64,000 nt of DNA, taken from contig NC_089730.1 of assembly GCF_035083965.1 (NCBI RefSeq), forward strand, positions 22,088,027 to 22,152,026, written 5' to 3'. This document shows, in pieces, positions 10,084 through 61,500 of this stretch. Positions within the stretch are counted from its first letter, which is position 1; every line of letters starts with the position of its first letter. The notes beneath the pieces are model-generated. The model made no database searches. It had not been told where the DNA came from and worked only from the letters and a program-made list of their open reading frames with translations. Made by a program: the position numbers and the translations under genes. The stretch is from Branchiostoma lanceolatum (taxonomy: Eukaryota > Chordata > Leptocardii > Amphioxiformes > Branchiostomatidae).

Positions 10084-13000
10084 ATGAGCGCCCTTCTGTG
10101 GCTCCAGGCGGGGACGGTACATTGCCTGTCGCGGGGGGAGGTTGCGGCGCTGAGGGCGGCCGCGGTGGGGAAGGGACGGTTCTACATCAGCGCCGGAAGT
10201 GGACCGTACCATGTGGTGACGGGGAACGGGGTGCCGACTCACGCCATGGGCAGGTCCCTCTGGCTCTGGTCCGGGTTCCGCAGAACGCCGCCTATAGTAG
10301 GGCACTTTCACTTTTCTCTACTGTATTCCTACTTTCACTTCACTAACCTTATCACAGGACGCCGCCTATAGTAGGACACTTTCACTTTTCTCTACTGTAC
10401 CCTTCCTTACACTTCATACCTTATCACAGGACGCCGCCTATAGTAGGGCACTTTCACTTTTCTCTACTGTATTCCTACTTTCACTTCACTAACCTTATCA
10501 CAGGACGCCGCCTATAGTAGGGCACTTTCACTTTTCTCTACTGTATTCCTACTTTCACTTCACTAACCTCATCACAGGACGCCACCTATAGTAGGGCACT
10601 TTCACTTTTCTCTACTTTACCCTTCCTTACACTTCACTTACCTTATCACAGGACGCCGCCTATAGTAGGGCACTTTCACTTTTCTCTACTGTATTCCTAC
10701 TTTCACTTTACTAACCTTATCACAGGACGCCGCCGATAGTAGGGCACTTTCACTTTTCTCTATTGCATTCCCACTTTCACTTTACTAACCTTATCACAGG
10801 ACGCCGCCGATAGTAGGGCACTTTCACTTTTCTCTACTGGACCCTTACTTTTACTTTACTAACCTCATCACAGGACGCCGCCTATAGTAGGGCACTTTCA
10901 CTTTTCTCTACTGTATCCCTACTTTCACTTTACTAACCTTATCAAAGGACGCCGCCTATAGTAGGGCACTTTCACTTTTCTCTACTGTACCCTTCCTTAC
11001 ACTTCACTTACCTTATCACAGGACGCCGCCTATAGTAGGACACTTTCACTTTTCTCTACTGTACCCTTCCTTACACTTCATACCTTATCACAGGACGCCG
11101 CCTATAGTAGGGCACTTTCACTTTTCTCTACTGTATTCCTACTTTCACTTTACTAACCTTATCACAGGACGCCGCCGATAGTAGGGCACTTTCACTTTTC
11201 TCTACTGTATTCCTACTTTCACTTTACTAACCTTGTCACAGGACGCCGCCTATAGTAGGGCACTTTCACTTTTCTCTACTGTAGTCCTACTTTCACTTTA
11301 CTAACCTTGTCACAGGACGCCACCTATAGTAGGGCACTTTCACTTTTCTCTATTGCATTCCCACTTTCACTTTACTAACCTTGTCACAGGACGCCACCTA
11401 TAGTGGACACTTTCACCTTTCTCTACTGTACCCTTCATTACACGTCACTTACCTTATCACAGGACGCCGCCTATCGTAGGGCACTTTCACTTTTCTCTAC
11501 TGTATTCCTACTTTCACTTCACTAACCTTATCACAGGACGCCGCCTTTAGTAGGGCACTTTCACTTTTCTCTACTTCACTAACCTTATCGCAGGACGCCG
11601 CCTATAGTAGGGCACTTTCACTTTTCTCTACTTCACTAACCTTATCGCAGGACGCCGCCTATAGTAGGGCACTTTCACTTTTCTCTACCGTATTCCTACT
11701 TTCACTTTACTAACCTTGTCACAGGACGCCGCCTATAGTAGGGCACTTTCACTTTTCTCTACCGTATTCCTACTTTCACTTTACTAACCTTATCACAGGA
11801 CGCCGCCTATAGTGGACACTTTCACTTTTCTCTACTGTATTCCTACTTTCACTTTACTAACCATATCACAGGACGCCGCCTATAGTAGGGCACTTTCACT
11901 TTTCTCTACTGTATTCCTACTTTCACTTTACTAACCGTATCACAGGACGCCGCCTACAGTAGGACACTTTCACTTTTCTTTACTGTATACCTACTTTCAC
12001 TTTACAACCTTATCACAGGACGCCGCCTATAGTAGGGCACTTTCACTTTTCTCTACTGTACCCTTACTTTTACTTTACTAACCTTATCACAGGACGCCGC
12101 CTATAGTAGGGCACTTTCACTTTTTTCTACTGTACCCTTACTTTTACTTTACTAACCTTATCACAGGACGCCGCCTATAGTAGGCCACGTTCACTTGTGT
12201 TCACTTATTTCCGTTAACCCTGATATTAACCCTTGTCTTTTGTAAACGTGTAATTCTTTAATTCTTTAATAGATACCCATTTCCACCGGACGGGCGGATG
12301 GACAGACTCGTGTTTTTGGTATGAATTTTTCGCTCGTAAGCACCCGATTTGTTCTCTTGTCGCCATCTTGGATCCATGCGTTCCTCCAACATGGCGACCA
12401 CGGCTTACTTTACGTCGCGTGCAAAAGCCTTTGGAGAGAGATGGGCTCAATTTCTGTCTCGGCTCAAAACGTTACCAGTCGCTCTGGGAAAGTAAAGATC
12501 TCCATGGATGGATGGATGGATGGATGGATGGATGGATGGATGGATGGATGGATGGATGGATGGACGGACGGACGGATGGATGGTGGATGGATGGATGGAT
12601 GGACGGACGGACGGATGGATGGATGGTGGATAGATGGACGGACGGATGGATGGCTGGTGGATAGATGGATGGATGGATAGATGGATGGAAGGATGGATGG
12701 ATAGCGGATGGACAGACTCGTGTTAGTGGCATGAATTTTGCACGACGACAGTTCACTCATAAGCACCCGATTTGTCTCAGCTTAGGCGCTCAATTTCTAA
12801 CCTTGAATAATGCAAACTCATCGCCTGGTTTCATGTCGAACGGCTGCTCCTCCGATGGGTCTCAATGAATTATTTCGCTTTGCATTTTGATGGAAGTGCC
12901 TAATTTTCAATCCACTCAAATCAACCACTATTATTTTTCATGTTTGATAAATTGTCGGTGCATCTTAACTTAAGGAATACAAATAGATATCAGGAAAAAC

Positions 13001-16000
13001 GTACGGATGCAAAGAAAAAGATACCATGGACCCATGCTTGAGTATATGAACATGTGTTGGGTTAGGGTTAGCCAACCACCAGCCAACCCATTCCAGACCT
13101 CCCGTGCACAGCCGAGTTTGATTTTTTTCCCCAGATTTTTTCAAAACCGTTTTCGGCTGGCGCAGCAGAACACCAGCCGACCACAGCCGACCTAGCTCCC
13201 GAACTACTCCCAACCATGGTTGGGGGAAGGTGGGGAGGCCATGTTCGGCTATGTGTGTGACCGGGGCTTTCGGTCCGGTTATTAGCTCCTGGAGTGATGA
13301 CCCCAAACCGTTATTAGCCGTTCCGCCGCGAGCCGCTGGGGAGATGCAGAATTGATGCGGAGAAACCGACCGGAAAGGATAATCAGCGCTGTTACCGCGG
13401 GACAGCTGAGGCAGGTACAAGAAACCAGGAGCAGATAAACTAGTCTAGTTACAAACATTTAGATCAGTTGTATCAATCTGATATATATGCATTCGGAAAA
13501 TTTCATATCAAACTCTGAGAAATTATGTGTCTGGCAAAATATTATTTAGTGATACAATATCAAGGCCCATATCTTAAAACAACAAGACTTTATATCTTGG
13601 GTACCAAATCAACTGTATTGCACTGTTCCAATTCCAATAAATCAAATCAAAATCAAATCAACTTGAAACACTTTATACAATTGGCCGCTTTTTGTGCGAA
13701 CATGGAACCTTCTGTCTGCGGCATTCGACAATATGCATACCCGGTCTGCAATGGAAAGAAAAAAGACTTCAAGAGCTCAAAAAGTGCTGCCAGGTTTACG
13801 TCAGTTTAAGTTTTTCATGTCGTAAATAGTCTGTTAAGTATCGACGCATCGACTTGTCATTGACCCGCAAACTCCCACGGCAACTCTCGCGGGGTTTCCT
13901 TTGGCAACTCTCGCGAGAGGACCGACTCGCCATTGACCCGCAAACTTCCGCGGCAACTCTCGCGGGATTTCCTGAGGCAACTCTCGCGAGAGGACCGATT
14001 TGTCATCGACCAACAAACTCCCGCGGCAACTCTCGCGGGATTTACTGCGGGAACTCTCGCGAGAAGACCGACTCGTCATTGACCCGCAAACTCCCACGGC
14101 AACTCTCGCGGGATTTCCTGTGGCAACTCTCGCGAGAGGACCGACTCGTCATTGACCCGCAAACTCCCACGGCAACTCTCGCGGGATTTCCTGTGGCAAC
14201 TCTCGCGAGAGGACCGACTCGTCATTGACCCGCAAACTCCCACGGCAACTCTGGCGGGATTTCCGGCGGCAGCTCTCGCGAGAGGACCGACTCGTCATCG
14301 ACCCACAAACTCCCGCGGCAACTCTCGCGAGAGGACCGACTCGTCATCGATCCAAAAACTCCTGCGGCAACTCTCGCGGGATTTCCTGTGGCAACACGCG
14401 AGAGGACCGACTCGTCCTCGACCCAAAAACTCCTGCGGCAACTCTCGCGGGATTTCCTGTGGCAACTCTCGCGAGAGGACCGACTCGTCATCGACTCGCA
14501 AACTCCTGCGGCAACTCTCGCGAGAGGACAGGACAGGGGGTAATCTGACACCTCTTTAGTTACAGTTGCTACGGAAGCTGCTGCCTCCGTCCGGCTGTGA
14601 CAGCTCACTGTTACCCGGGAGACACAAAAGAAACACTTGTTCGATTTCCCGATGTTTGTGGGCAGGTGATGAATGATGCTGACATTCGCGCGGCGGCAGA
14701 TTCACAGATTTCAGTCTCCGGTGGAGATGCGAACTTTTGAGCCGAGAACTTCCAGAGACTGGTGGGTTTGGGTGTCGCAAACAGGGGAGAAGCAATAGAA
14801 GTGGAGAAGTGTTCTGGGGCGAAGCTGCGACCCAACTTGTCCTACCTCAGAAATCTGGTCCTAAGACGATGTACCCTGGGAGAGACTCGATCCGAGATTT
14901 GGCGCGATCACCCGAACTTTGCCGGCCCCAGTGTCCCGCTCGCCCCCGCGATCCAGCGCTCCCCCACTATCCGCTTGCCGAACGCTGTCTTTTGGTCCTA
15001 CATTACCTGATATCTAATTACCTAAGAAGCCCGGTCCCCAGACTAGCAGCGGCCTCAGCTGGCCCGGTACATCTCTGATTGCACCGCACACCGTTAATCA
15101 GTATGGAAATCCCCTCCGCTACTACCCTCAGGAGTCCGGTCCCCAGACTAACTGTACACGTACCACCCTCACGAGCCCGGTCCCCAGACTAACTGTACAC
15201 GTACCACCCTCAGGAGCCCGGTCCCCAGTCTAGCTGTGTACACGTACCATCCTCAGGAGCCCGGTCCCCAGACTACCCGTGGCCCCAGCTGGCCCGCTAT
15301 GTCCCTGATTGCCCCGAATGCCGGTAATCTGTATGGAAATCCCCGCCGTAACCGCCGCAGCTGGAGACCGGGGAATGGGCGACCTGTTGCCGGCGGAGGT
15401 GGTTATAATCTCCGCGCAGGTCTGCAGACCTCCGTCTGGTGATGTGCGGTGTTTAGTAGCGGTCTGCTCGTCTCTAGGCTCGGAAAAAAATTAAAGGGTT
15501 GCTGTCGTTCTGTATGGTGGATTGTAGTTCTATGAAAACCGCATTTTTACCTTTGGAGTTTGGACTTACGCTCAGATTTACTAGTTCATTATCTAAATGT
15601 ATGATTGTCTTGTTAAATATTCTATTCTATATGCGAGGAGTTGTATAGACACAGAAAACCAAGCCGATAATCGAAACGTGAATATGCCCGTAGACTCGGG
15701 GGGAAATGACCAGGTATTTCCGTGGGAGCCAATATTTCCGGCATCCATCATATTTAACTCCCTGTTATCGACATCCGCCGTACGACAACCTGCAGCAAAA
15801 TCGAAACTAAAATTACGCCTGCTTGTAGATTCGGTGATGGTTTCAGCGGGGGTCGGCCATAAGGCTACCGTAACGCCACCGTAGTGCCATCTTAGCGCCA
15901 CCCACTGGAAGTGCCAGCGTAGCGCCATCATAGCGACGTCCTAGCGACGTCCTAGCGCTACCATAGCGCCACCGTATCGCCACCGTAGCGCTTCGCAGTG

Positions 16001-19000
16001 CCATCTTAGCGCCCAGGTCAGGCCACCGTAGCGCTTCGCAGTGCCATCTTAGCGCCCAGGTCAGGCCACCGTAGCGCTTCGCAGTGCCATCTTAGCGCCC
16101 AGGTGAGGCCACCGTAACGCTTCGCAGTGCCATCTTAGCGCCCAGGTGAGGCCGCCGTAACGCCATCTGTCCTCATCTTCCCTGCCCGAATATCGACCTG
16201 TTCGGAACAACCGGCGTGACCTCTATTTCCGCGGCCGCCGGGAGCAGAAGTGATCTCCGGGGCTCCCAGCAACGGGAATTACACGGACCAATGAACCCGA
16301 AAACCTCTGGTGTCAGAAGTACGGCCGTGGCCTTGAGGGCTGCTTCTGAAAGATGGAGGATTGAATCCTCGGTCATTGTCGTTTATCTGTCCCAGGGCTT
16401 CCCCAGCAACGGGAATCACACGGATCGATGCGTGTTGAACATCGTGGGTTGAACTTTGCAACCTCTGGTGTCCTTCAAAAGTACGGCCGTGCCCTTGGGG
16501 CCGGCTTTCGAAGGATGGGAGTTTGAATCCCGGGCTACTGGGGTCCATCTGTCTCGCATGCTAGGGGAAAAGATCTCCGGTCCGGGCGTTCCTCACTAGC
16601 CTCCACCAGTCTCTGCGGGTCGCTGGGAAAATAGTAGAAATTGGCCAAATAGAGTCAATTGTATGAAGGGAGTAGGCTACGGAGAGAGGGTCAAATATGC
16701 AACCCTGGATGGAAATGTTATCCTCCATGGCCAAAGTCCCCCGGCAAATGTTCTCTCTATAGCCGACGCTGTTAGTCTGGTAGAGACTAGTTCCTCACTA
16801 CGGGCGTTACGCGGAACGATGCGTGGTGAGCATTACAGGAAGAATCTGGCCTTTGAATCCGGGGCGGTTGTAGATCGTCGCTACGAGGAATGATCTGTAA
16901 ACTGTAATCGGAACAGAGATCACCCTGCGATCTTTGGTCTTCTCTAAAAAGTGTCTCTGGGGCTTAAGTCTCAAGTATACAAAAGGTTTAGTGTTCGAAT
17001 CCCAACAACCACCTGTTCTATGACGGACAGCTACTGGTAAAGGCTGCGGTCCCTATGAAAAGGGTTCATGAGTGTTTAACATCAGTGTCGAACGGTGCGT
17101 TATGAACGGGATCGAACCTCTGCCCAATATTCTAGAGTCCATTTTAGGTCCCTTTTCCTAATGACATCACGGCGGGTCCGACACGGAACCATCACTGTAT
17201 AAAACCTCACCGTGTTCATTGAAACAAACGTCATACAGGATCTAGTGGACTACCGGAATTTTCTTCACTTGGAATTAGTTTAATTCTTTTTTTTTTCATA
17301 TGTAACTTGCCAACTCAGATGAACTTTCATGGCAGTACAGGATCGGCTGTCCCGAAGTGAACCAGCCGACCTCTGACCTTTTGTGCGTTCGGCTGCAGAT
17401 TGCAAACGACTCTGATATCGAACGGTGTAACCTCTGCCCTACTAGACATCATGATGCCCCATCGTCATATAACACCACTATTGACGTACTGTTCACAATG
17501 AGGTCTGTCCCTACACCTGTGACCTGTTCTTATTTTCCCACTCTTGGCTGTAGATTAGAAATGAGCGTCTGAATATCGAACTTTGTAACAATGCCTCTGC
17601 CCCGCAGCCATCATGTAATCTTTATTGGCACAACAAAAGTACAGTCATATAACATCATTATTGTTCACAACGCGGTCCATGCGAACAAATTCAATAGAAG
17701 ATAAGCTTCTAATTGCTGAGCGTAAATCAAAATCACCCAGTTCTAGATATTCTTCCATGGAATATGATGTTTTGCATGCCTTGTAAAACCTTAACTTGCC
17801 TGTATCCATACTCAGATTATGACAGAAAGTTTGGGTGTACATATCGGTAATTCTGGACCTTATCGTAGTACAAACTGACTTGATGTCACTGGATGAATTA
17901 CAAGAACACATAGGAATGACACATTTGCCCTTCTAGAAACCATGGAGTGAAGTGAACTGTCTGCTCCTTTACCCGTGGCCTGTCCTCATTTACCTCAGGC
18001 TTGGCTGTAGATTAGAATAGCCTTCTGAATATCGAGCGTTATAAACACCTTTGCCCTATCTGACATCGCGGATTCCCGTCCCCACAGCACATCATTACAA
18101 CCCGATAAACCTGGCGTCTTACGGACAAACTCAATATCTAAGGGCGGGTTCACACGAGTGCGGATATTCAACTCCGTATGAATTCTGTTTTGACAATTTT
18201 TGGCTAAGCTAAATTAAAGTTTCCGGCAAAGAACTAGTTAAAACCATGCCACACAACGTTGTGTCAAAGTAAAAAAAAATACTTCTCCGCAAACCTTAGG
18301 GCCTGTTCACACTTGTGCATACATTCGCATGAGTTCAGTTGTGTATTTGGTTTAGGTAAATAAGACATGATTGTTTTCTACTTTGACCCACCGCCTTGCA
18401 GCCAGGTTAACCAAAAGAAAATTGCTTCTTTGGCCTCAAACTTCACCCAAAGCAAAGAAACGTCAATACGGAATTCATACGGACTTAATATATATTACGC
18501 ACATGCGTGACAGCCCTAACAGTTAGGGGAGGGGAGACAATGTACGGTGTCACCTTATTGACACCATGGCCCCTAGAGAAACTGCCCTGGTCATTTTTCA
18601 CAGACTTAACTGCGGATCCGAAAGTACCGGCCGATATCGAACGATGTAAACCCGTTTTCCCTGTCGGGTATCATCTAGTTCCATCATCACATAACCTCAC
18701 CGGGAGCGCAGAGATCACAATCTGGTGCTACAGGAGACTACCAAACTGTGCAGCTCATAACGTCTGCCGCTCTCCAACCCGAGACCACGGGGTAGACCCC
18801 ATAGACTGCCCTGGTCATTTTTCACAGACTTAGCTCCGAGTCAGAAAGAACCGGCCGATTTCGAGCGATGTGAACTCGTTTTCCCTAGCTTCATCATTAC
18901 ATAACGTCACCGGGAGCGCAGAGATTACAATCAGGTACTGCAGAAGACTACCAAACTCTATAGATCATAGGAGCTCTCCAACCTTACAGCACGGGGAAGA

Positions 19001-22000
19001 CCCCAAAGACTTGGAAAAGATCAATTAAAAGATAACGCTGGAAACGTGTCGATAGAGGAGGATGAAGCAGTAGCTAAGGACGTTGCTACCAGGTAATAAA
19101 TGGTAACAGGAACAATAGGCCTATTTTCTTGTATCACCACTTCAGTGGGGATCTCACAAGACCAGGAAATTACGCCAACTTTGAGCCAATTTGCGCCAAT
19201 CTGCGCCTATTTGCCCTTGCGGTCACACTGACGTGCGACGTGTTCGGAGAAAATACGTGACCTCTACAAACAAAATGTTGCATTTCCTTCAGTTTCGGCC
19301 CCAATGAGATACAGGATAGAAACTCTATTGGAAGTCACAATGTTGCAACTACGCTGTTAGAATGCATTCTTACGCAGGGAAGAGTTCCTGTTTAGTACAA
19401 ACATTTCCGTTGCGTTACGGAGCATTCTCGAGTACAATCTGAGAAGGATAAACGCGCGTTAAATTTTGTGCCGTTGTTGTAACATTCCCGGCCCACTAAC
19501 ATTCCGTCTGAAGCATTGTTAGAGCTTTATTATTATGACTTGAGGGTATCTGATACTATTTATGTATATTGCAGAATAAACTGTGGACCCTTGATTTTAT
19601 AAATCACTACTTCAGTCATCATTTCATAGCTCGTGTGTCTAATGTGCCGTTCTTAATTACTAACCAATCACAGCTGATGATTCATACAATGATAGACAGT
19701 CCACCAATCATAATTGATGACCCATCTAAATACCTGTAACTAGCCAATCATAATCGATGACCCATAGAGGCATTAATGATCCACGATTAACCAATCACAG
19801 CTGATGATCCATTTAATGACTAGTAGTTAGCCATTCACAGTTGATGACCCATACATAAAGTAATGATCAACAATTAACCAATCACAGTTGACGACCCATT
19901 AGAGATTTAATGAAGATGTATATGACAATTCTGCCATCAGAAACACCGTACAAACATATATTAACTACTATTTTTCAGTTAAGCCTGTCTTTACCTAGTA
20001 AATACCTTAGTATTTACCTATACTAGTAATAGTCTTTATTGCATGTTCCTGCCCAGATGGGCTAAATGCACAGAAAACAACACAAGATCTATACTGTGCA
20101 GTCTCTAAGAAATAGAAGTGGGAACGTTTGCAAATTTGACTGTCTTTGGCTTGCCTGTGTGTGTCAGTGTGTCTGTATGTATGTTTGTGCATATGTGTGT
20201 TGGGGTGTGCTGCGTGTCTGTCTGTGCTTGTCTGCGATTCCCAACATACGCAATGCAGCGTTGCCATACTCGGCATGGCACTGCTATACTTTTTGTCTAT
20301 GGGAATGGAAGGATCGCAAAGCAGTATGGGTAAGGGGTTAAGTCTGCCATCTCGGATTGCCCTGCTTGTAAAAGACAGCTTCATTTATTTTTGGATTTTT
20401 GTATCAGCGATACGTGAAAAGCAGGCTTGTTGTCTCAGTGTATTTTTCCCTGTATACAAAATAAATGATTGAATAAATTTTCCCTGTACACATAGTAAAT
20501 AAATGCAATCTAAATGCCGAGGAGTGAACCACATTTGCGTTTAACGATCGGTTCTATTGAGAACTGTTCAAGCAGGTTTTATAACCACCGTTCATTCTCA
20601 GTTCGTCCCGGCCCGCGTTTCGCGTCTGCGGTTCGCAGATAAGAGCAGAGCGCGACTCGCTCCGCGCGGAACGGTTCATCCCAGCAGGGGCTGATAAAGG
20701 GTGGCATAGTGACTCCGGAATGGCGACGGAGAAACCGGAAAATTTACCCGAAGAGCAGAAGAGAGCCGACAGGAGAACTAGTAGAGGAACTGTCCCCAGA
20801 GCACAAGCCTTCTTCCTTCTCTAAGTGGCTTCCAGTCAATGAACTTCTTCGCTGTTCCGGTCTCCCTCATTCTCGGGACATGTCCCAGCCATCTTTAGCC
20901 TTCTTTCTCTTACCATGTCTGACACTTCCTTCTGGTTTGTTCTGTGGTAGTCTTGGTTTGCTATATTGCCCCTGTATGAGATGCCCTACATGCATGTTAA
21001 AGTTTGACTGTATTTTTTATTCCCGCCCTGCAGAAACAGCCGCACATCTACCGCGTGCAGCGGAACGCGACCTTCGCCTCCCGGCCGAGCTGCCTGCCCG
21101 ACGGGCCCATAGGTCAGTTCTGTTTACGTACCGCTTTTATCGGGTTTACGTGCTATTTTCATCGGGTCTATGTACTGTTACTACCAGGTTTATGCGCTGT
21201 AATTACAAGGTCTATGTACTGTTTTTGTCAGGTTTACGTGCTGTTTTGATCTGGCCTATGTACTGTTTTCCAGGCATGACGGTGAACGGAGTGCCTATCT
21301 ACAGCCCTTACGTCACAAACCGGTGTTATGACGCGGGACTGCTGTACAAGGCGGGCGGGTTTGACCTCTGCAGCGGTCATGTCGACCCGCAGAGCAACTA
21401 CCACTACCACGTCATACCCAACTGTCTGCTCAACCAATCACAGGTAGGAACCGTTCTCACGTCATACCCAACTGTCTGCTCAACCAATCACAGGTAGGAA
21501 CCGTTCTCACGTCATACCCAACAGTCTGCTCAACCAATCACAGGTAGGAACCGTTCTCACGTCATACCCAACTGTCTGCTAAACCAATCACAGGTAGGAA
21601 CCGCTCTCACGTCATACCCAACTGTCTGCTCAACCAATCACAGGTAGGAACCGTTCTCACGTCATACCCAACTGTCTGCTAAACCAATCACAGGCAGGAA
21701 CCGCTCACACGTCACATCCAACTGTCTGCTCAACCAATCACAGGTAGGAACCGCTCACACGTCATACCCAACTGTCTGCTCAACCAATCATAGGTAGGAA
21801 CCACAACTGTCTGCTCAACCGATCACAGGCCAGCCCCCTGCAGCTGATTGGTTGATGATAACAAATGTTGGGACAGTTTGAATACAACGAAGGCTAATCT
21901 AACTTGTTGTAAATGCAGTAGTCAGTGAAGTTCCCTGTATTCAGTGGTAAAACTAGTTTACTACATCATTCTGTCTGAACCTGTTTAAGTCTTGGGTCGA

Positions 22001-22644
22001 GGACGCAAACAAAATGGGGGAGGGGCGGCCACCCGCTCGTTCTCAGTGCAAAAGACACCAAACTGACAATGATATAGATAGACATTAATCTTGTTTCGAA
22101 ACAAAACCCACTTAAACGAACCTGCCCTGACTTCACTGACATCAGCCACACCTTCCCGTTACAGGTGCCGTCCGCCATCATTGGGGTCGCCTTTGACGGG
22201 TTCCCCATCTACGGGCCCAGGACAGAGGACGGCACGACCTTGACCTCCGCTGACCTGGACGAGTGTCATGGCCGCCTGGTGGACGGGAGATATCGGTATC
22301 ACGTGACGGAGGACTTCCCGTATTTCCTGGGCTGTTTCAAGGGCGTCGTGATGGACGTCAAGGTCAAAATGGCCGACTGCAAATGTTACGGTCCCGTCAA
22401 CCCTTGCAATCCACCACAGAGAAACGCATATGATGTGGTCATCATAGACAGCAGTCAAACGCAACGAGAATACAGGTTACAGATTAATGGCGGGAGAATC
22501 GCCTGCAAGTTAGTCGAAAACAGAAATCAGAGCGCGTCGCCCTCCCCCGCCTCCGCAAGGAACTGCAAAATATCGTCTGCCATGTCGTCCGTTGTCATGG
22601 TTACGGGTCTGGCTCTGGGAACGATGTCCCTGCTGCAGCGGTGA
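10084..22644 (+). CDS. YHYH-domain protein, probably GPI-anchored cell-surface or secreted
   Basis: Four exons join in frame: about 10084-10296, 21034-21112, 21274-21443 and 22165-22644 (stop TGA). The family signature is clear: NGVPTHAMG in exon 1, [16 protein letters not shown], then the name-giving [11 protein letters not shown], and later [12 protein letters not shown] and a DECHG-like motif. The C-terminus is a short hydrophobic stretch ([17 protein letters not shown]) at the very end, as in GPI-anchor signals. The exon 1 to exon 2 join is phase 0 and rebuilds the family pattern, with TPPI followed by KQPHIYRV where relatives have NPN-I--Q. The start is uncertain: the Met at 10084 is the nearest plausible one, and another upstream exon with a signal peptide may exist. 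Intron 1 is ~10.7 kb and repeat-filled. The biochemical function of YHYH domains is not established. Confidence 0.72.
10286..12190 (+). repeat. Exon-boundary minisatellite, 27 copies, at YHYH exon 1 donor
   Basis: A unit of about 70-76 bp (two are ~57 bp) begins at the last bases of YHYH exon 1, ACGCCGCCTATA, and includes the donor gtagggca. It then runs through cactttcacttttctctact and tttactaaccttatcacag and repeats. The phrase gacgccgcctatag occurs about 27 times. Each unit also ends with ctaac plus a pyrimidine-rich stretch and cacag, which resembles a branch site and 3' splice site, so one unit looks like a tiny exon between two splice sites. A pair of longer identical blocks (near 10360-10430 and 11020-11092) shows internal higher-order duplication. 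Confidence 0.9.
12504..12700. repeat. (GGAT)n microsatellite with GGAC variants
   Basis: An imperfect tetranucleotide run, the complement type of 7957-8115. It is flanked on both sides by copies of a phrase containing gcggatggacagactcgtgt (near 12294 and 12706), so the microsatellite sits inside a duplicated segment. Confidence 0.95.
12701..13599. other. No gene recognised (intron 1 of the YHYH gene)
   Basis: Mixed-composition DNA inside the long first intron. A 151-codon minus-strand open frame at 12965-13420 shows no recognisable domain, and its middle is a degenerate cagccgac repeat. I do not call it a gene. Confidence 0.45.
13600..13662 (+). mobile_element. Truncated SINE 3' end
   Basis: Carries gtattgcactgttccaattc and ccaataaatcaaatcaaaat, matching the 3' end of the tRNA-derived SINE at 7225-7478 in the opposite orientation. 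Only the tail is present. Confidence 0.7.
13845..14530. repeat. ~72 bp tandem array of the TCTCGCGAGA palindrome
   Basis: About ten units of cattgacccgcaaactcc, then caactctcgcgggatttcct, then caactctcgcgagaggaccg. Each unit holds one perfect TCTCGCGAGA palindrome (first at 13909-13918) and one half-site TCTCGCGGG; one unit (~14395) has lost the palindrome and one is shortened. In mammals TCTCGCGAGA is a known promoter motif linked to CGCG-binding proteins such as Kaiso/ZBTB33. Function here is unknown. Confidence 0.9.
14531..15839. repeat. Mostly unique DNA with a ~42 bp tandem repeat at 15125-15290
   Basis: Between 15125 and 15290 the phrases aggagcccggtccccagact and aactgtacacgtaccac repeat four or five times, with flanking diverged copies near 15030 and 15310. 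The rest, including an open frame at 15597-15884, has no recognisable domain. Confidence 0.6.
15840..16165. repeat. ~43 bp tandem repeat of accgtagcgcttcgcagtgc type
   Basis: Four good copies (about 15990-16160) of ggccaccgtagcgcttcgca followed by gtgccatcttagcgcccagg, preceded by shorter degenerate tagcgccac units. Confidence 0.9.
16240..16560. repeat. Two ~140 bp direct copies with tRNA-like B-box
   Basis: The order agcaacgggaat, acacgga, aacctctggtgtc, agtacggccgtg, cttctgaaagatgg or ctttcgaaggatgg, then ttgaatcc occurs twice (near 16265-16375 and 16400-16545). The second copy ends GGGAGTTTGAATCCCGGG, close to a pol III B-box, so the unit may be an old tRNA-derived repeat. It does not fold as an intact tRNA. 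Confidence 0.5.
16599..16790. mobile_element. MITE family A, copy 2
   Basis: Starts ctccaccagtctctgcgggt and ends ctggtagagactag, with the same interior as 335-530 and 52869-53106, including gccaaatagagtcaattgta and tgaagggagt. The ends are imperfect inverted repeats. Confidence 0.75.
16791..17609. other. No gene recognised; first units of a degenerate repeat
   Basis: Contains degenerate copies of the phrase tcgaac-gtg-aacctctgccct near 17085, 17120 and 17415. It also contains a T-rich tract near 17285. Nothing coding was identified. Confidence 0.4.
17610..17930 (-). mobile_element. LINE fragment, 3' end with reverse-transcriptase C-terminus
   Basis: The minus strand encodes [20 protein letters not shown] followed by an RSLSSIEF stretch. 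This resembles the C-terminal region of non-LTR retrotransposon ORF2 proteins (pattern KLRFY, LELGDF-LRSAI). It is followed by a 3' tail with CAATAAAG (complement of ctttattg near 17623). The 5' part is missing, so it is a dead truncated copy. Confidence 0.6.
17931..19659. repeat. Degenerate dispersed repeats, no gene
   Basis: The segment gccgatatcgaacgatgtaa to agactaccaaactgtg at about 18625-18750 recurs at 18850-18960 in diverged form, together with the shared phrases cataacctcaccgggagcgc and agagatcacaatc. Near 18140 and 18298 two similarly oriented copies of gggttcacacgagtg / tgttcacacttgtg occur. From 19010 to 19659 no feature is visible. Confidence 0.5.
19660..19915. repeat. Degenerate ~50 bp repeat containing CCAAT motifs
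   Basis: About six diverged copies of taaccaatcacagctgatga followed by cccat and an AT-rich spacer. Each copy carries a CCAAT or close variant. The block lies in intron 1 of the YHYH gene. Confidence 0.75.
20030..20120 (-). mobile_element. Retroelement 3' tail (hairpin type)
   Basis: The sequence ctttattgcatgttcctgcc then cagatgggctaaatgcac reads on the minus strand as a short hairpin (AGCCCATCTGGGC) followed by CAATAAAG. The same 3' end is seen at 25335-25400 and 40280-40420, always in this orientation in this window. It is probably the end of a LINE or SINE family. Confidence 0.5.
20812..20905 (-). mobile_element. LINE reverse-transcriptase C-terminal remnant
   Basis: The minus strand reads [18 protein letters not shown], the conserved block near the C-terminus of many non-LTR reverse-transcriptase proteins (WLGHV-RM). 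It is short and truncated, with no active element. A longer fragment of the same kind is at 48000-48330. Confidence 0.55.
21113..21273 (+). repeat. YHYH intron 2, built of acceptor-like ~30 bp units
   Basis: The 161 bp intron consists of about five degenerate units such as ggtctatgtactgttactac-cag and ggcctatgtactgttttccag. The last one is the real 3' splice site before 21274, so the intron appears to have grown by duplicating its own acceptor. Confidence 0.65.
21444..21830 (+). repeat. Exon-boundary minisatellite at YHYH exon 3 donor
   Basis: The last 36 bases of exon 3 (from cacgtcatacccaactgtct to aaccaatcacag) plus the donor gtaggaaccg repeat as a 50 bp unit. About eight extra copies follow the authentic boundary at 21443. 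Each copy keeps CAG|GTAGGA, a good donor. Because 50 is not a multiple of 3, use of a later donor would shift frame in most cases. Confidence 0.93.
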
Positions 22645-25935: not shown

Positions 25936-28900
25936 CTAACTATTTCCGCTGTTTCCGCCCTGTAAAAGACCGGCCGCCAGCTGACTAATGATCTCCCAGG
26001 CGAACGTGATGTCATTCGACGCGGTCGTCGCGGCGCAGACGGCGAATCTCAGGAAGTAGGTCCCTCGCACCTGAGACGGCACCAGGTGGATCTTCTTCCC
26101 GTCGTTTATCTTCTTAAGTAGCTGCTCGTTAACCTCATTCGAGCCCTGCAGGTGTGACATGTACAAAGACATTGCAGCTTCTAAATGATACAAGAAGCTC
26201 ATCTGCATATCTCCAGTGAGGCTTAAGTTACTGCTCTTTACTAAGCTACAAAAGGCAAAGTGAGAGCCTTACACAGTTTCTAAGATTCTAGTCAGTCCTC
26301 ATTCTTAAAAAGGGTTTCATGATGTTCCTGACTTAGGGAGAAGGGAGGCTGTTACAGTTACAATGTAACCCATCACCTTTTAGTGGTCTTTGGATCTTGC
26401 TATGTGGTGACCATTAAGTAAAAAAAAAACTGAAAAAATTGCATAAAGATACATTTCTGAAGTTTAAATTTGGGGCAATATGTTCAGGTCTGGGAAGCAA
26501 CGTTGAAACTACAACTTATAAGTTGATTGACAGATGTTAGGTTACAAACATTTCCTGAAACAAACTCATCATGCAAACCATACAGAACCCTCTACGTCTT
26601 AAAGAAAACCTTTCTCCGAGTCGCCCACCTTCAGTCGGAAGCAGACCAGGCCCATCACCACCTCAGCCGTGACCTCAAACCGCTCGTCGCTCCTCACGAG
26701 GGCCTCAAACTCCTTAGCCAGGCCGATTTGCTGGAGGGAGAGTCAGAGTAAGGAACGTCTTGGTAGAAGGGAATACTAGTACCACAGCAAGTTCAACTTC
26801 AAGTTCTTCATCTGTCTTAAGATGTACAGCGTCTGACTGTTACGGCAACAACTTGATTACCTGAGTATCCTTACATAATGTACAACACCGAAATGACATC
26901 AGTGGCCACAAAGGATAATCAGGTTAGGACCTAAAGTGTGATGTGCAAAAGCAGTAATAAATATGAATATGCTGATTCTTAATCAATCCATCCTTTACTT
27001 ATGGACAGGGTCAATAATGTTGTAATACTGAGAGAGGTATGACCCTTACCTCTCCCCTAATAACCTCAAACAAACAAACAAACAAACAAACAAACATTCT
27101 TATTACTCTTCTGTCTCACCTTCCTGATGTGGTCCTGAAGACCTTTGACCCCAAACATGCGTAACACGAACCACAGCTTCAGCGAGCGGAAGCGCCGCCC
27201 TAGCGGGATCTGCCAGTGCTGCAGGGTCAAAGTTCATTAATGCCACCTACCAGTATCAAACAGTACTGCAGGGTCAAGGTTCAGTTAATGCCCCCCACCA
27301 GTATCAAACAGCACTGCAGGGTCAAGGTTCAGTTAATGCCCCCTACCAGTATCAAACAGTACTGCAGGGTCAAGGTTCAGTTAATGCCCCCCACCAGTAT
27401 CAAACAGCACTGCAGGGTCAAGGTTCAGTTAATGCCCCCTACCAGTATCAAACAGTACTGCAGGGTCAATGTTAAGTTAATTCCCCCTACCAGTGTCAAA
27501 CAGTACTGCAGGGTCAAGGTTTAGTTAATGCCCCCTACCAGTGTCAAACAATACTGCAGGGTCAAGGTTCAGCTAATGCCCCCTGCCAGTATCTAACAGT
27601 GTTGCAAGTCAGAAATCAGCCCCAAAATATGACAGGAATATTTTCAATTCAACTATGAACATCAAGACAGTAGTAGTACAAATAAAATTTCCGTCAGAAT
27701 TTTTGCTGTGATTAAGTAAAACAAAGCACATTTCTGTCACAATCTTTGATAAAAAGAAGGTATGAATACACAGCGAACAAGCAGAGAAAACAGCAGACCA
27801 GAGAAACTGCAGGTTTAGAGAAAACTATTCATGGTTGCTGAGGAGATCAGAAAGCCAGCTCACCCTGTAGTCAGTCACCAAACCTTCAGCACCAAGGAGA
27901 GAGAAGAACCCGGGTTAGCCCTGCACCAGTTATGTACACGCACAACAGGAACAATCTTACTACTACAAGTGCTACAAGTAATGTATGATTAAGGCCACTC
28001 AGATCCCATGGCATGTGTTAGTCCTGCACCAGTTATGTACACGTACAACAGGAACAATCTTACTACTAGAAGTGCTACAAGTAATGTATGATAAAGGCCA
28101 ATCAGATCCCATGGCATGTGTTAGTTCTGCACCAGCTATCCATGTATGTTTTAAGTCATCCAGCAATGGGATGAGATGAGATATATGTACACAAAAGTAA
28201 CGGTCTTATAAGTGCTACAAGTTTATGTATAAGAAAAGACCAATCAGATCCCATGGCATGTGGGTAACATGTGTGAGTTGTGCACCAGTTATACATGCAT
28301 GTATGTGTAACCCATGTAGCAGTGAGATGAGATATATATAGTTGTACACAACAGGAGCTGTCTTACTAGTGCTACAAGTTTATGTATAAGAAAAGACCAA
28401 TCAGATCCAATGACATGTGCATAACACATGAGAGTTTCACCAGTTATGCATACACAACAAGAACAGTCTTACAATTGCTACAAGTACTGTATAAAATGAC
28501 CAATCAAAACCAGGATGACAAGAGCGTAACAGGTCGCTGACCGGCTGACCTTGGACTGACCTTGGTTGTCGTGCTTGAGGTAGAGCGGGTCCAAGTTGAA
28601 CGCGTCCACGATGTCTGCTCGGTTCCGAATCCTGAAACGAATCAGAACATGTCAGAACGTCTGCTTTTTTGTCACATGAAGTGTACATGGTGATCAATCA
28701 AATACGCCGAGCAAGATGGAACCACAAACTGGTGTTGCTGACAAAAACAGCAATGATTCTGTATGCATTCATATTCATGCTCAGCACATGACTGAGCAGT
28801 CAAAGTTCATTAAGGGTCAGAGATGAAAGGTAAGGGGTCAGGATTGACTGAGTTCAGGACTCATCACATGGCTGAGCAGTCAAAGTTCATGTAGGGGTTA

Positions 28901-47200: not shown

Positions 47201-49924
47201 TTCTACAGCTTCTTAAACCTTCTACAGCTTCTCTGGTAAGGAGCCAAGACTTCCTAAACCTACAACAGCGTCTTAAATCTTCTACAGCTTCTTAAACCTT
47301 CTACAGCGTCTTAAACCTTCTACAGCGTCTTAAACCTTCTACAGTGTCTTAAACTTTCTACAGCTTCTTAAACCTTCTACAGCATCTAAAACCTTCTACA
47401 GCGTCTTAAACTTTCTACAGCATCTTAAACCTTAATTCTACAGCATCTTAAGCCTTCTACAGCATCTTAAACCTTCTACAGCTTCTTAAACCTTCTACAG
47501 GGTCTTAAACCTTCTCCAGAAGAAGTACAATAATATTATTGTCTTGGTAATGTCTTGAGTTTTTTGTATAAGTTTGGAGTTGGGCCAGCCAGAAGAATTC
47601 CAAGAAATATTTTCTGACAAACATTTTCTGTCCTCAAAGCAGAATGATGGCGATGTGTCACACCACAGTTCTTCCTGTTCAGATGACTGATGTTGTTTGT
47701 TTGTTTGTTTGTGTGTGCAGGAGGAACGAGAAGTAAGACCACAGTTCTACCTGTTCAGATGGCTGACTCTACTATTGTCCCAGGAGTTCAAAATGCCAGG
47801 TAAGAGATGGCAGACTTCACCCCCTTGCCCATACTGCTTTGCAACCCTTCCAGTAAAAAAACAACAACATAGACACACCGAGCATGTATAAATATGTCGC
47901 AGTTTGTATTTTGGGAATCGCAGAAACACAGACACACAATCATACATTTGACTTACCCTAGACTTTAGTTCCTCCCACAACATCAGTGTGTATTCACTCA
48001 CTCACTCATGACCCATGACCTCTGTGGTCGTAGGGGCGTCATGACAGCCAGCCGCAGTGATCCATGCCTATCCTGTTCTGTCCTCGGCCTCTCTGATCAG
48101 CTGTGCAGTGCTCAGGCCAGTCCGTGTCTTGATGTTGTCCAGCCAGTGCTTCTTTTGCCTTCCTCGTTTCCTCCCTCCTGCTACTGTACCTTGCAGAATG
48201 GTCTTGGCAAGTGTGTTGTATCGGCATATGTGCCCGAACCACTTCAGCTTCCGGCGCTTGACCGTCGACAGGAGTGTTGGATGTCTGCCGCAGACAGCCT
48301 CTACCTCCCTCCGTACCGTACAGTGTGTATTATAGGTCGCAAATGGTGCTCCTCTGATCCAGAGATCTCGGTTCTATGCCGCTGATTCCATTTCCTTCAT
48401 TGATTAAGAACAAAGAGGACAAAACAATAGTTCCCTTTGGACTAAATTTGCTGTTACAGATAAATGTTGAAAGAAACATAAACCAACATTTCTGACTTGA
48501 GTGAAAAGTACAGCTTGTCAAACCGTCTTAACAAGTGTTGTTTTTCCTTTTCCTTCAGATGTGATCCGAGTCTGGGACTCGCTGTTCGCTGATCGGCAGA
48601 GATTCGACTTTTTGTACTGTGTGTGCTGTGCCATGATCATGTACGTAACACATTTATTTATTGAGATTTACCACATTTGTGGAAGGATTGACATAACAGG
48701 TGACTATCACATTTTCAAGATGTCAACCTGGCGCAGACTGTAAGGTTTGATCCACTCACACCGGGAAGGACCCCTTAGTAATGCATTGTGTGTTCATGGC
48801 CCTGTGGTTATGTTTTTGGACATGGAATCGGGAGGTCCCTGAGGCAGTTCCAGGCTAGACGTTGTGTGCTGGCAAAAGTGATTTTCCTCACTGGACTCAG
48901 GTATAAAAATGGGTACCTGACTTTGGTTGGGGAGGTATCATGATTCTGCTATTATGTTCATCTCTGTAGATATCATTAATCAAAAATGTTGGGTCAGGGA
49001 GGCGTGAAAGAGGCGTGAATTGACAGCCTACTGTTGTGTTGTTCTGCTTGTGTTTAGTTGTTTATGTTTACATGTTTATCTATTAATATTTCATGTGTTT
49101 CAGCTGCATCCGGAGCCGGATTCTGGAGGGAGATTTCTCCGACACCATGAGAACACTACAGGTGAGTGGACAGGTGTGACAGGTACAGGTGTGACAGGTA
49201 CAGGTGAGTGGACAGGTGTGACAGTTACAGGTGTGACAGTTACAGGTGTGACAGGTACAGGTGTGACAGGTACAGATGTGACAGGTACAGGTGTGACAGG
49301 TACAGGTGTGACAGGTACAGGTGTGACAGGTACAGGTGTGACAGGTACAGGTGTGACAGGTACAGGTGTGACAGGTACAGGTGTGACAGGTACAGGTGTG
49401 ACAGGTACAGATGTGACAGGTACAGGTGTGACAGGTACAGGTGTGACAGGTACAGGTGTGACAGGTACAGGTGTGACAGGTACAGGTGTGACAGGTACAG
49501 GTGTGACAGGTACAGGTGTGACAGGTACAGGTGTGACAGGTACAGGTGTGACAGGTACAGGTGTGACAGGTACAGGTGTGACAGGTACAGGTGTGAGGAC
49601 AGGTGTGACAGGTACAGAACACTACAGGTGCATGAGAGGTACAGGTGTAGGACAGGTGTGATTTGTATACGACAAGTGAGAGTTGGGCTGTGTACAAGTA
49701 CAGGACAGGTGTTGTCAGCCACTCAAAAAGAGTATGGACAGGTACAGGTGTGACAGGTGCAGGGTAGGTGAGAGTAGGACAGGATAGGTGTGGCTTAAGG
49801 GCTGTGCACAGAGACAGAAAAGGTACAGGATTTAATTATTTTTTAATTTGTTTACTTACAGAATTACCCAGACGGGGACATCCATGTTGTCTTGAGGAAA
49901 GCTGTGGAGATCTGTCCGTCTTGA
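41292..49924 (+). CDS. TBC1D13: TBC1 domain family member 13, Rab GTPase-activating protein
   Basis: Rab-GAP that speeds GTP hydrolysis by Rab proteins in membrane traffic (vertebrate TBC1D13 acts on Rab35). Fourteen exons in phase: 41292-41311, 41399-41472, 42521-42561, 43164-43225, 44179-44275, 44696-44778, 45140-45305, 45496-45624, 45999-46065, 46993-47156, 47721-47799, 48559-48640, 49104-49161, 49862-49924; 394 residues against about 400 in humans. Clear blocks: [48 protein letters not shown] (arginine finger IDKDVRR), [28 protein letters not shown] (glutamine finger), [32 protein letters not shown] and [11 protein letters not shown]. The start ATGGCGGCC has a purine at -3, with a CRE-like tgacgtcc about 90 bp upstream. 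Every intron is GT-AG; several carry arrays that copy their splice donor. Confidence 0.97.
42005..42118 (-). mobile_element. tRNA-derived SINE head
   Basis: The minus strand carries A-box TAGCCTAGAGG and B-box GGTTCGATTCC about 50 bp apart, the pol III internal promoter layout. The sequence between them is too altered for a functional tRNA, so a SINE or tRNA pseudogene is most likely. It is in TBC1D13 intron 2. Confidence 0.6.
42580..43060. repeat. CA-rich low-complexity tract
   Basis: Starts with three or four ~40 bp units (catcccatcggcacaactac plus a C run) directly after the donor of TBC1D13 exon 3, then becomes irregular cacacacataa sequence. Confidence 0.85.
43370..43650. repeat. ~35-40 bp minisatellite, TBC1D13 intron 4
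   Basis: Seven or eight degenerate copies of gtgatgtaacc then ggaccaaatgtgcacaggtt and tca. The same family fills intron 9 at 46130-46985. Confidence 0.85.
44285..44516. mobile_element. MITE with ~32 bp inverted ends
   Basis: Left end aatcatgcgatgcaaaactt-tcttccaacact and inverted right end aatcatagcacaatgctaaa-ctttcttacaacact. It is inserted nine bases after the donor of TBC1D13 exon 5. It carries a minus-strand copy of the CTGAAGA-stem-GAAA motif discussed in the findings. Confidence 0.8.
44640..44676. repeat. Short (CATC)n and (CATT)n run
   Basis: A small tetranucleotide run immediately before the acceptor of TBC1D13 exon 6. Confidence 0.8.
45625..45730 (+). repeat. Exon-boundary copies at TBC1D13 exon 8 donor
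   Basis: The end of exon 8 (gccaaactgaaccccggcca then gggctacgtacag) and its donor gtgagttctg repeat twice more in a 52 bp unit. The second copy keeps the donor, and the third has gtcagg instead. A weaker fourth copy may lie at 45760-45790. Confidence 0.92.
46130..46985. repeat. ~35 bp minisatellite filling TBC1D13 intron 9
   Basis: About 24 copies of aatcaggagcaaatgtgcac followed by aggtttcagtgatgt, with variants gagataatgtgcactggt and tattgggagc. A subset of variant orders recurs, showing block duplication. It runs almost into the acceptor at 46993. Confidence 0.95.
47157..47520 (+). repeat. Exon 10 donor copy and ~16 bp array
   Basis: The donor region ctggtaaggagcc-agactt of TBC1D13 exon 10 is duplicated at 47231-47250. 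About eighteen copies of cttaaaccttctacagc then fill the 5' part of intron 10. Each copy ends in a pyrimidine tract plus ctacag, an acceptor-like sequence. Confidence 0.9.
48000..48330 (-). mobile_element. LINE fragment, ORF2 C-terminus
   Basis: The minus strand, allowing one frame change, reads [32 protein letters not shown] and DHCGWLS, which is the GR-K--W-DNI block near the C-terminus of many non-LTR ORF2 proteins. Truncated and inactive, in TBC1D13 intron 11. Confidence 0.75.
49162..49650 (+). repeat. 15 bp array growing from TBC1D13 exon 13 donor
   Basis: Exon 13 ends ctacag|gtgagtggacag. Immediately after it gtgtgacaggtacag repeats about 28 times, mixed with a few gtgagtggacag and gtgacagttacag variants. 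Each unit contains ACAGGT, an exon-donor-like junction. The frames coding TGVTG, RYRCD or CTCHT repeats are artefacts. Confidence 0.95.
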
Positions 49925-58531: not shown

Positions 58532-61500
58532 CTATGACTTGTCCTGCAGCATGACCAGGAACTGCACATAGTCTTTGGCGGGAGTTCGGAAGGCCTGTGC
58601 GATGGCTCGCGCCGCGTCCTTGTGCTCCAGACCTTGTAGAGACTTGCCGTCAACCTCCAGGATCACATGACCTACCTGCAGGGCCCCTGATTGGTCAGCT
58701 GAGCCGCCAGGCTTCAGGAAGGAAAACAATCATTATTTCAAAAACTTAATCTGCAGAGCATGATGCATCTATCACACCTAGCATTAAACAATGTCATGAA
58801 TATGAAGTTGTAACCGACTGGTTTGCAAGGGGTGTGGGGGAGACAAGGCAGCACCTTATCTAAATTAAACAGGGGGCGTCACTATCTCGGGGCGTCACTA
58901 TCTCAAGCCTGTATATGACTGTCTCTTGTCACGTGGTAGTCAGCATCATCAGTCACGTGACAAGAGAACTCCAAGATGAGATTACCGGGTTGAAGAAGGG
59001 TGCATCTCGAAAGCTCCCCAAAGGTAGCAAACATTTTTCATTGTGTGTAAAGGTTGAACATTTGTCAATATAAGTTGTAATACTACAGTGAAAATACATG
59101 CAGAGTGACTGTATAGTGATGTTACACACCTGTATAGTGATGATTCTGGGCAGCGGTTGCCGGGTGTTGGCCCCGCCCTCTATCGCTATGCCCAGCGTCG
59201 GGGCGACTTTTGGCACTGTGACTAGGTAGGGGTGGTTCACACTGGGGCTGGAGACCTGGGGACAGAATCAATCAATCAATAAGTCATTCAATTAATCAAT
59301 AAATAAACAAATCTGAGTACAGAAATCACACTGGGGTTTGAAACTTGAGAAAGTCAATCAATCGATCAATCAATGTAGCAATAGTCAATCAATTGATCAA
59401 TTAATCAACCCCCCCCACTCACCATGGATTCTGCGGGACTGTCTCCCCTCGGCGTTCCTGTGCCGTTAACCATGTCCATTCTCGGCGGCGGCGGTGGGGG
59501 CTGCTGGGGCTTAACCGGGGGTGACGACCTCTGACCTCTGTCCCTCTCGTTCCACTGGGTGGGTGACCCCTGCCCTCTGTCCCTGTCTGGCAGGTCGTTG
59601 TGTCTGTCGTCCTCCGGTCTTCTTTGATTGACGTCTTCTTCTTGCAGCCCATTGGTCATCTGCGCAGGCGCCCTGCCAAATTTGGGCGCAGTGTCTGGCG
59701 CCTCCCTCCCATTGGTCAGTCTTGGTGGGGTTTCCACGGCGGCAGAGTGGAAGGAGGAGTCGGGAGTTTCGTTAGCGGTCTGGAATGAGGTTTCGCGGAG
59801 CGTGGAGTCGTCTCCGCTGTCGTATGCGTGTTCATGAACCTCCCTGATGGTGACGGGGTTAGGCGATATGGTCACACTGGAGACACAAGGGGAGAGCAGG
59901 TTAGCGGGGTGGTGAGGGGAACGTCTGTTAGAGACCAGGGAACGTCTGTGAGAGACCTAACCTCGCTGATGGTGACGGGGTTAGGCGATATGGTCACACT
60001 GGAGACACAAGGGGAGAGCAGGTTAGCGGGGTGGTGAGGGGAACGTCTGTTAGAGACCAGGGAACGTCTGTTAGAGACCAGGGAACGTCTGTAAGAGACC
60101 AGGGAACGTCTGTGAGAGACCAGGGAACGTCTGTGAGAGACCAGGGAAGGTCTGTGAGAGACCAGGGAACGTCTGTGAGAGACCAGGGAACGTCTGTTAT
60201 AGACCAGGGAACGTCTGTTATAGACCAGGGAACGTCTGTGAGAGACCAGGGAACGTCAGTTAGAGACCAGGGAAAGTCTGTGAGAGACCAGGGAACGTCT
60301 GTGAGAGACCAGGGAACGTCTGTTAGAGGCCTAACCTCGCTGTTGGTGACGGGGTTAGGCGATATGGTCACACTGGAGACACAAGGGGAGAGTGGGTTAG
60401 CGGGGTGGTGAGGGAAACGTCTGTTAGAGACCAGGGAACGTCTGTGAGAGACCAGGGAACGTCTGTTAGAGACCAGGGAACGTCTGTGAGAGACCTAACC
60501 TCGCTGATGGTGACGGGGTTAGGCGATATGGTCACACTGGAGACACAAGGGGAGAGTGGGTTAGCGGGGTGGTGAGGGGAATGTCTGTTAGAGACCAGGG
60601 AACGTCTGTTAGAGACCAGGGAACGTCTGTTAGAGACCAGGGAACATCTATTAGAGACCTAACCTCGCTGTTGGTGACGGGGTTAGGTCATCTGATATGG
60701 TCACACTGACTGGATACACAAGTGTTGAGTGGGTTAGCAGGGTGAAGGGAACGTCGGTTAGAGACCATGAGTTGAAATGCAGGATTCTGACACACAGCTG
60801 GAATAGCGAGATGGTGGAGCTGATAACCATGCATTAGTAACTAACCCCACTGACAGTCTGAGAGAGTATCTTAAAACTGTCCACATGGCTTGCAAATCAA
60901 AGTAATAGGGAGGTCTCACACAGGAGTTTGAAAGCTGGTCTCATACATGAGTTCATGGCTGAAATGGCGTATACTAGTCTCACAGTTAAGATCATGGTCC
61001 CATACATACATACATACAAATGGATTTGAGCCAGTATGCATTAGAAATGAAGGGGTATCACATAGGAGTTTAAACATGACACATGCATAACTGAAAAAGG
61101 AGGTCTCTGAGATACTGCACACTCTGGGAGTTCTAGAGACCTAGCCTGACATGCATATACATGTAACAGTCAGGCGGTCTCACACATGAGTTTTTGGGTA
61201 ACATCATGTATTTAGAATTAGGTATCACACAGGAGTTCATGGCTGACATGACATGCATTAGTAGGGGGAAGGTCTCACAAATAAGTTTCTGGGTGACATC
61301 ATGTCTTTGGCATGAGTTATCACACAGAAGTTCACGGCTGACACGACATGCACCAGTAAGGGTCAGGTCTGACAGGAGTTATAATGATGGTCTCACACAT
61401 GAGTTTATTGCTTACATGACATGCAGTAGTAAAGGAGGAGGTCTCATGCAGGGGTTTACTGATGACATGCATTACTGAGGGTCTCACACAGGAGTTTAAG

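Follow-up and report, generated by a model that had tools for sequence, protein, structure and literature searches.

The window analysed here is a 64-kb stretch of Branchiostoma lanceolatum DNA, a single window picked because tandem repeats at exon-intron junctions had been noticed in it in an earlier reading of the sequence alone (the sequence-only reading). Four genes were rebuilt, all with intact frames: YHYH and a TBC1D13-like gene on the plus strand, and DDC and the 3' part of whirlin on the minus strand. Their models contain 65 splice junctions (32 donors and 33 acceptors); the junctions of a whirlin microexon and of a DDC upstream exon, both identified later, are outside this set and outside the junction scan. 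At 12 of the 65 junctions a tandem repeat spans the splice site. These repeats belong to an already known kind, the amphioxus "mirages".

Three of the four rebuilt models agree in their exon limits with known proteins. The YHYH model is 90% identical to Branchiostoma protein P0001 over 96%, including a 12-residue junction stretch, and the DDC model is 93% identical to Branchiostoma protein P0121 over 100% of the 474-aa query and also matches PDB 3rbf. The in-window part of whirlin is 100% identical to B. lanceolatum protein P0242 over 100% of that part, which is consistent with a cephalochordate origin of the window. For TBC1D13 the support comes from the completeness of the frame and from a Pfam domain match (RabGAP-TBC), not from comparison with a relative.

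Junction-spanning repeats were detected with a self-similarity scan of every position, in which the 6 bases on each side had to lie within a local repeat at a shift of 8-1500 bp. At the main cut, a score of 18, the scan returned 12 of the 65 junctions (18%), exactly those of the sequence-only reading, which had reported repeats crossing about a dozen boundaries in the four genes. Both 5' and 3' intron boundaries are affected, as had also been claimed: 8 of 32 donors and 4 of 33 acceptors reached this score. Other cut-offs gave 15 junctions (score 13), 14 (15.5) and 11 (both 20 and 25). The junctions added below 18 are the donors of TBC1D13 exons 5, 6 and 7 (scores 13-16.5), which were not counted as mirages. 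The arrays are listed in the table together with the genes.

Table. Genes and junction-associated arrays in the window (positions are those of the window; E, exon).
Feature	Position	Junction or exon edge	Strand	Description
YHYH gene	10012..22644		+	exons 10012-10296, 21034-21112, 21274-21443, 22165-22644
YHYH E1 donor mirage	10281..12205	junction 10296/10297	+	74-bp unit, ~26 copies, 16 exonic nt, donor ATA/GTAGGG
YHYH E3 donor mirage	21400..21830	junction 21443/21444	+	50-bp unit, ~8 copies, 36 exonic nt, CAG/GTAGGA
DDC gene	25936..36566		-	14 exons, counting from MDHAEF
DDC E1 donor mirage	36331..36498	exon end 36460	-	83-bp unit, 2 copies, 36 exonic nt
DDC E3 donor mirage	33875..34616	exon end 34552	-	units 78-83 bp, ~9 copies, 65 exonic nt; TGG/GTAAGT identical in all
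DDC E4 acceptor mirage	33601..33887	exon start 33660	-	decoy with ~60 exonic nt at 112-bp shift
DDC E5 acceptor mirage	31335..31637	exon start 31408	-	shifts of 116 and 91 bp, 2 decoys, 74 exonic nt; AG lost in one
DDC E9 donor mirage	28780..29059	exon end 29035	-	83-bp unit, 3 decoys, 25 exonic nt; GT lost in two
DDC E12 acceptor array	27198..27606	exon start 27218	-	48-bp unit, ~8 copies, ~5 clear exonic nt; weak case
TBC1D13-like gene	41292..49924		+	14 exons
TBC1D13 E8 donor mirage	45575..45733	junction 45624/45625	+	52-bp unit, 3 copies and a decayed fourth just past, 47 exonic nt
TBC1D13 E10 donor mirage	47142..47260	junction 47156/47157	+	79-bp unit, 2 copies, ~6 exonic nt; then a 19-bp array to 47519
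TBC1D13 E11 acceptor	47615..47766	junction 47720/47721	+	probable decayed 76-bp duplication; absent from the list of the sequence-only reading
TBC1D13 E13 donor array	49150..49617	junction 49161/49162	+	15-bp unit ACAGGTGTGACAGGT, ~30 copies, ~5 exonic nt
whirlin 3' part	58532..63501		-	63501-63401, microexon 61540-61529, 59876-59423, 59255-59130, 58711-58532
whirlin linker exon (E2 of the in-window part) acceptor mirage	59837..60767	exon start 59876	-	164-bp unit, nested 21-bp units, 4 decoys, ~43 exonic nt

The arrays differ widely in size. Unit lengths run from 15 to 164 bp, beyond the 15-85 bp given in the sequence-only reading (DDC E4 has 112 bp, DDC E5 116 and 91 bp, and whirlin 164 bp); of the 2-27 copies given there, the lower end holds and the upper end is about 30. 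The unit length is not a multiple of three in 10 of the 12 mirages. Exonic bases within the unit, as read from the alignments, number 16-74 at nine of the 12 junctions and merely about 5-6 at the other three (TBC1D13 E10, TBC1D13 E13 and DDC E12). In the DDC E4 array there are three further nested acceptor copies, at shifts of 146, 178 and 210, each with about 4 exonic nt, and nested repeats of 32-34 bp. The extra copies in the introns are referred to as decoys. The claim that each copy keeps a usable-looking splice site is nearly correct: by hand reading GT or AG is preserved in 61 of 65 decoy copies and lost in four, with losses at DDC E9 (one of three retained) and DDC E5 (one of two retained). 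TBC1D13 E13 was left out of this count because its 15-mer contains many CAG-GT sites. In the decoys of TBC1D13 E8 (45644-45676, plus strand) a C-to-G change creates an AG, and a 33-nt in-phase mini-exon (11 residues) could be spliced in principle.

It had been suggested that the pattern is far above chance, and the answer depends on the null. Compared with random sequence the excess is overwhelming, as score 18 was attained at 0.02% of shuffled positions. When positions are compared one at a time, local repeats are rarer at junctions (18%) than inside introns (40%; 19% of intergenic and 8% of exonic positions reach the score), which runs contrary to the claim; 37-40% of the intron sequence in the window consists of repeats. 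This comparison was not taken as the main null because array expansion inflates the repeat coverage of introns. Instead, tandem duplications were placed at any gene-body site that leaves the protein unchanged, and each array was counted as one seed, since copies added later leave the array ends in place. The list for this seeding null was hand-curated and held 33 gene-body arrays with a period of at least 10; microsatellites were dropped, and five dispersed duplications were added only in some settings.

Crossing arrays among the 33 numbered 13; dropping two weak cases left 11, and requiring a minimum of 12 exonic bases left 9. The expected number was 2.5-3.4 when introns were taken at full length and 3.6-5.0 when every array was reduced to a single unit, and P was at most 0.014 and at the lower end 0 of 200,000 simulations. 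With the five dispersed duplications, 9-13 of 38 arrays cross, compared with 3.2-5.6 expected (P from 0.00003 to 0.034), and without YHYH 7-11 of 25, compared with 2.0-4.8 (P from 0.000005 to 0.086). Over all 36 settings the excess is 1.7- to 4.6-fold, with P below 0.05 in 35 and a maximum of 0.086. Alternative versions, with a cruder formula or with a DDC E4 unit of 146 bp, gave an agreeing excess (largest multi-gene P, 0.058). Single-gene P values were 0.02 for YHYH, 0.13 for DDC, 0.10 for TBC1D13 and 0.55 for whirlin. The claim of a pattern far above chance is partly supported, the enrichment being that of this one window, which was picked for the pattern.

The junction has no preferred place within the repeat unit. 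The exonic share of the unit spans 0.08-0.90 without a fixed offset (Kolmogorov-Smirnov P = 0.84, 12 hand-read values), and taking the DDC E4 unit as 146 bp instead of 112 bp changes this P to 0.46 and leaves the excess almost the same. A breakpoint fixed relative to the splice site has no support in this wide spread. A junction hotspot of another type may still exist. No clear bias between donors and acceptors was found (8 of 32 versus 4 of 33, P = 0.21). Splice sites at mirages were not weaker than the other sites among the 65 junctions (P = 0.71 for donors and 0.85 for acceptors), and the idea that weak sites attract mirages is thus unsupported. In the four arrays in which splice-motif columns were compared with the rest of the unit, the fraction of windows equally or more conserved was 0.35, 0.74, 0.34 and 0.04, with no clear excess of conservation in three of the four.

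The decoys cannot serve as exon extensions. The decoy-use test took decoys in which GT or AG was retained and which were similar to the main site. Outside TBC1D13 E13, none of the 60 would extend the exon in an open reading frame, all leading to a frameshift or a stop; at TBC1D13 E13, 1 of 63 sites would. The functional site is the exon-attached one in the models that agree with Branchiostoma proteins (YHYH, DDC and whirlin), and decoy exons are absent from the matching proteins P0242 (whirlin), P0001 (YHYH) and P0121 (DDC). Comparison with the same proteins, which cover three genes and not TBC1D13, revealed no new intron built from two duplicated copies. The predicted models P0124, P0125, P0241 and P0250 do include intron- or decoy-derived residues. 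The whirlin decoys are flanked by AG and GT. No coding constraint was detected in the whirlin 21-mers (5 silent and 10 replacement variants versus 17:46 possible), and a coding reading of them was dropped, since this ratio lends it no support.

Array copy number appears to vary within B. lanceolatum. Predicted proteins from a second record of the species contain decoy-derived residues at DDC E3, DDC E4 and whirlin E2. Its predicted whirlin protein, P0241, carries the start of the 63501 exon (minus strand), SALKPGKDLGQQSSVSEDSG, four times, versus once in the window, and its predicted DDC protein apparently has more E4-like pieces.

Comparing the same boundaries in other Branchiostoma species had been advised in the sequence-only reading, and predicted proteins of B. 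belcheri do give repeat matches at two of them. Model P0250 contains the same intronic repeat at the orthologous place of whirlin E2 (41.6 bits; the highest score among 30 shuffled queries was 26.9). Each of the eight top matches listed falls within the whirlin array of the window, and both the breakpoint after SEV and the 21-bp unit (SLTDVP) are shared. Model P0124 contains the same intronic repeat at the orthologous place of DDC E4 (30.4 bits versus 23.5 for the best of 30 shuffles), with the best six matches in the E3-E4 intron. This sharing is seen in predicted proteins only, one of them labelled low quality, and it surfaced because the predictors took decoys for exons. All four whirlin decoys read AGC (serine), and serine is also the residue in the proteins of B. 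floridae and B. belcheri; the B. lanceolatum exon reads AGG (arginine).

Younger dates than the one given here have been obtained in other studies for the split between B. belcheri and B. floridae. It has been placed at 120 +/- 10 million years, and orthologous introns of the two species have been described as virtually without similarity (PMC4284660). Because the same intronic repeats occur in B. belcheri while ordinary introns are reportedly dissimilar, the whirlin E2 and DDC E4 mirages seem to be older than the species split and to have persisted longer than ordinary introns. A general form of this idea is that junction arrays outlive ordinary introns, through an exon-anchored copy or a role in splicing, with these two arrays dating from before B. 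belcheri and B. lanceolatum separated, their intronic units remaining recognisable and their decoys being fossils of ancestral exon edges. We regard it as possible but somewhat doubtful. Long persistence of mirages is the most interesting lead. In the B. belcheri whirlin model P0246, other exon edges that lie outside the window are repeated several times each (VGDQILDVNSV... and SHAPPPRPD...NGAAAGK).

The arrays are probably best understood as mirages that began as ordinary, protein-silent tandem duplications whose breakpoints flanked a junction by chance. One breakpoint of the seeding duplication would fall on each side of the splice junction. The exon would stay attached to its own splice-site copy, and the extra copies, each an exon piece with its decoy site, would end up in the intron; such a duplication would be silent for the protein because the exon remains joined to its own splice site. 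That splicing uses the exon-attached copy is inferred from proteins, not RNA. Array size would subsequently change by unequal exchange or slippage. Duplications within exons would be purged, and intronic and junction-spanning ones tolerated. Since introns are short and very rich in minisatellites, random seeding alone would account for about one fifth to three fifths of the crossing arrays (2.0-6.4 of 7-13, by setting). The remaining excess might reflect longer survival, as selection on the exon would fix one copy and deletion could not then remove the whole array.

Several predictions of this neutral origin agree with the data: the wide spread of the exonic share matches random breakpoints, splice sites at mirages are not weaker, donors and acceptors show no clear bias, and motif columns are unremarkable in three of four arrays. 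Three observations count against it. The excess over random seeding persists in every multi-gene setting, and the survival bias invoked to account for it is a proposal only. Two mirages are recognisable in B. belcheri as intronic repeat, which is unexpected under plain neutral turnover if introns saturate. At DDC E12 the acceptor motif columns are within the most conserved 4% of windows.

The same excess, present in 36 of 36 settings and with P below 0.05 in 35, would be produced if tandem duplications were born more often at exon edges, whether by chromatin, base composition or transcription-linked breaks. The G+C content within 40 bp is indeed slightly higher at mirage junctions (0.54 versus 0.49, P = 0.08). 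However, the offset of the unit from the junction is not fixed (P = 0.84), no clear donor or acceptor bias is seen (P = 0.21), and of the single genes YHYH alone falls below 0.05. The window was also selected for the pattern, and longer survival of arrays predicts an equal excess. A junction hotspot is therefore considered rather unlikely. The arrays might also be functional, acting as splicing regulators or conserved intronic elements kept by selection, and the B. belcheri matches at whirlin E2 and DDC E4, found despite the reported dissimilarity of introns (PMC4284660), would fit this. Yet these are just two cases, met through errors of gene prediction and in one case a low-quality model. 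The whirlin 21-mers lack coding constraint, three of four arrays show no clear extra conservation of their splice-motif columns, and copy number seems variable within B. lanceolatum. A functional role of this type appears improbable.

Retention of spare splice sites by selection, to replace a damaged one, was also proposed in the sequence-only reading. Preservation of GT or AG in 61 of 65 decoys would be in line with it, but young homogenised copies retain these dinucleotides regardless. The proposal is largely refuted here and has very little probability left, since none of the 60 decoys outside TBC1D13 E13 (and 1 of 63 there) is usable, mirage sites are not weaker and motif columns are not clearly more conserved. 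It is also very unlikely that the arrays are intermediates of intron gain or mini-exon birth, as in the Rogers model and the proposal of the globin paper. The acquired AG in the TBC1D13 E8 decoys allows an in-phase mini-exon (read by eye), and AG and GT flank the whirlin decoys, but P0242, P0001 and P0121 have no such exons, and the models with decoy residues (P0124, P0125, P0241 and P0250) are predictions. An assembly artefact, with repeats collapsed, expanded or misplaced, might be feared in a repeat-rich genome, and a B. floridae globin mirage was apparently misassembled in the draft (PMC3087553). It is not supported and hardly credible in this case: in several arrays the copies have diverged from one another by many substitutions, and repeats are found at the same junctions in other records and species.

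Further features were observed in the four genes. The whirlin microexon (61529-61540, minus strand) is 12 nt long, CAAGAAGAAGAG, adds KKK and is flanked by TGCAG and GTAAAT; the KKK residues are present in models P0241 and P0246-P0249 and absent from P0242. DDC apparently has an upstream exon (38836-38702, minus strand) and an N-terminal extension (36878-36567, minus strand), both matching B. belcheri P0124. The upstream exon contains a 21-bp pair, and with the extension 36570-36755 becomes a coding 27-bp minisatellite (PIPTPGDEE). YHYH intron 2 (21113-21273, plus strand) consists nearly entirely of 22-bp GTTTAC...CAG-type repeats, and the final repeat provides the exon 3 acceptor with its polypyrimidine tract and AG. 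An intronic 73-bp array at 13850-14529 (plus strand) matches the C-terminal part of the B. lanceolatum gene model P0005, and P0005 and P0002 are apparently two erroneous models of a single YHYH gene. An open reading frame piece in a TBC1D13 intron (48074-48181, minus strand) resembles the N-terminal part of P0002 (44%, E-value 4e-5) and is perhaps derived from a mobile element.

If the density of mirages seen here holds genome-wide, a large proportion of amphioxus junctions face arrays of nearly perfect decoys, and the choice of the exon-attached site by the spliceosome could be studied as a natural experiment. Mirages also explain errors in amphioxus gene models, as in P0124, P0125, P0241 and P0250 with their intron- or decoy-derived residues. 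If mirages do outlive ordinary introns, old exon edges would be preserved in them, which would allow a test of whether a constrained anchor copy prolongs the life of an array.

The term "mirage" was coined for Adh3, and cases in globin genes, PGBD5 and TnC followed (PMC3087553, PMC3902484). The Adh precedent named in the sequence-only reading was correct (PMC3087553). Described examples include Adh3 of B. floridae and B. lanceolatum, the globins BflGb6 and BflGb9, PGBD5 and TnC (PMC3087553, PMC3902484). Traits associated with mirages also include unstable length among alleles and, for Adh3, somatic instability. It has been suggested by the globin authors that mirages are possibly general in cephalochordates and a path to new introns, and Adh3 data together with globin reverse transcription PCR suggest that regular splicing is undisturbed (PMC3087553). 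Searches of an open-access library listed no genome-wide survey of mirages.

Related structures are known from other genes. Introns of amphioxus VCBP3 hold complete or partial exons with splice sites that resemble adjacent exons, but the available text of that report does not describe them as junction-crossing tandem minisatellites (PMC2632668). Human dual-specific AGGT repeats (UBC, VCX3A) likewise have units that carry splice sites, and link repeats to intron evolution (PMC10809524). There, one site is both donor and acceptor and the UBC repeats are coding (PMC10809524), whereas the arrays described here are outside the inferred message. AGGT occurs at the junction in three of the eight donor mirages (YHYH E3, TBC1D13 E8 and TBC1D13 E13). 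The Rogers model of intron gain by tandem duplication (cited in PMC3087553) also starts from a duplication across splice signals; the arrays in the window show no new intron. The closest likeness is with the earlier amphioxus mirages, which share a unit spanning the exon-intron boundary, the involvement of both boundary types, AG or GT in many but not all copies, and a cephalochordate host. The present case differs from those in the 12 of 65 junctions affected in four neighbouring genes, the seeding null, the tests of decoy usability and site conservation, and the signs that two mirages are shared with B. belcheri.

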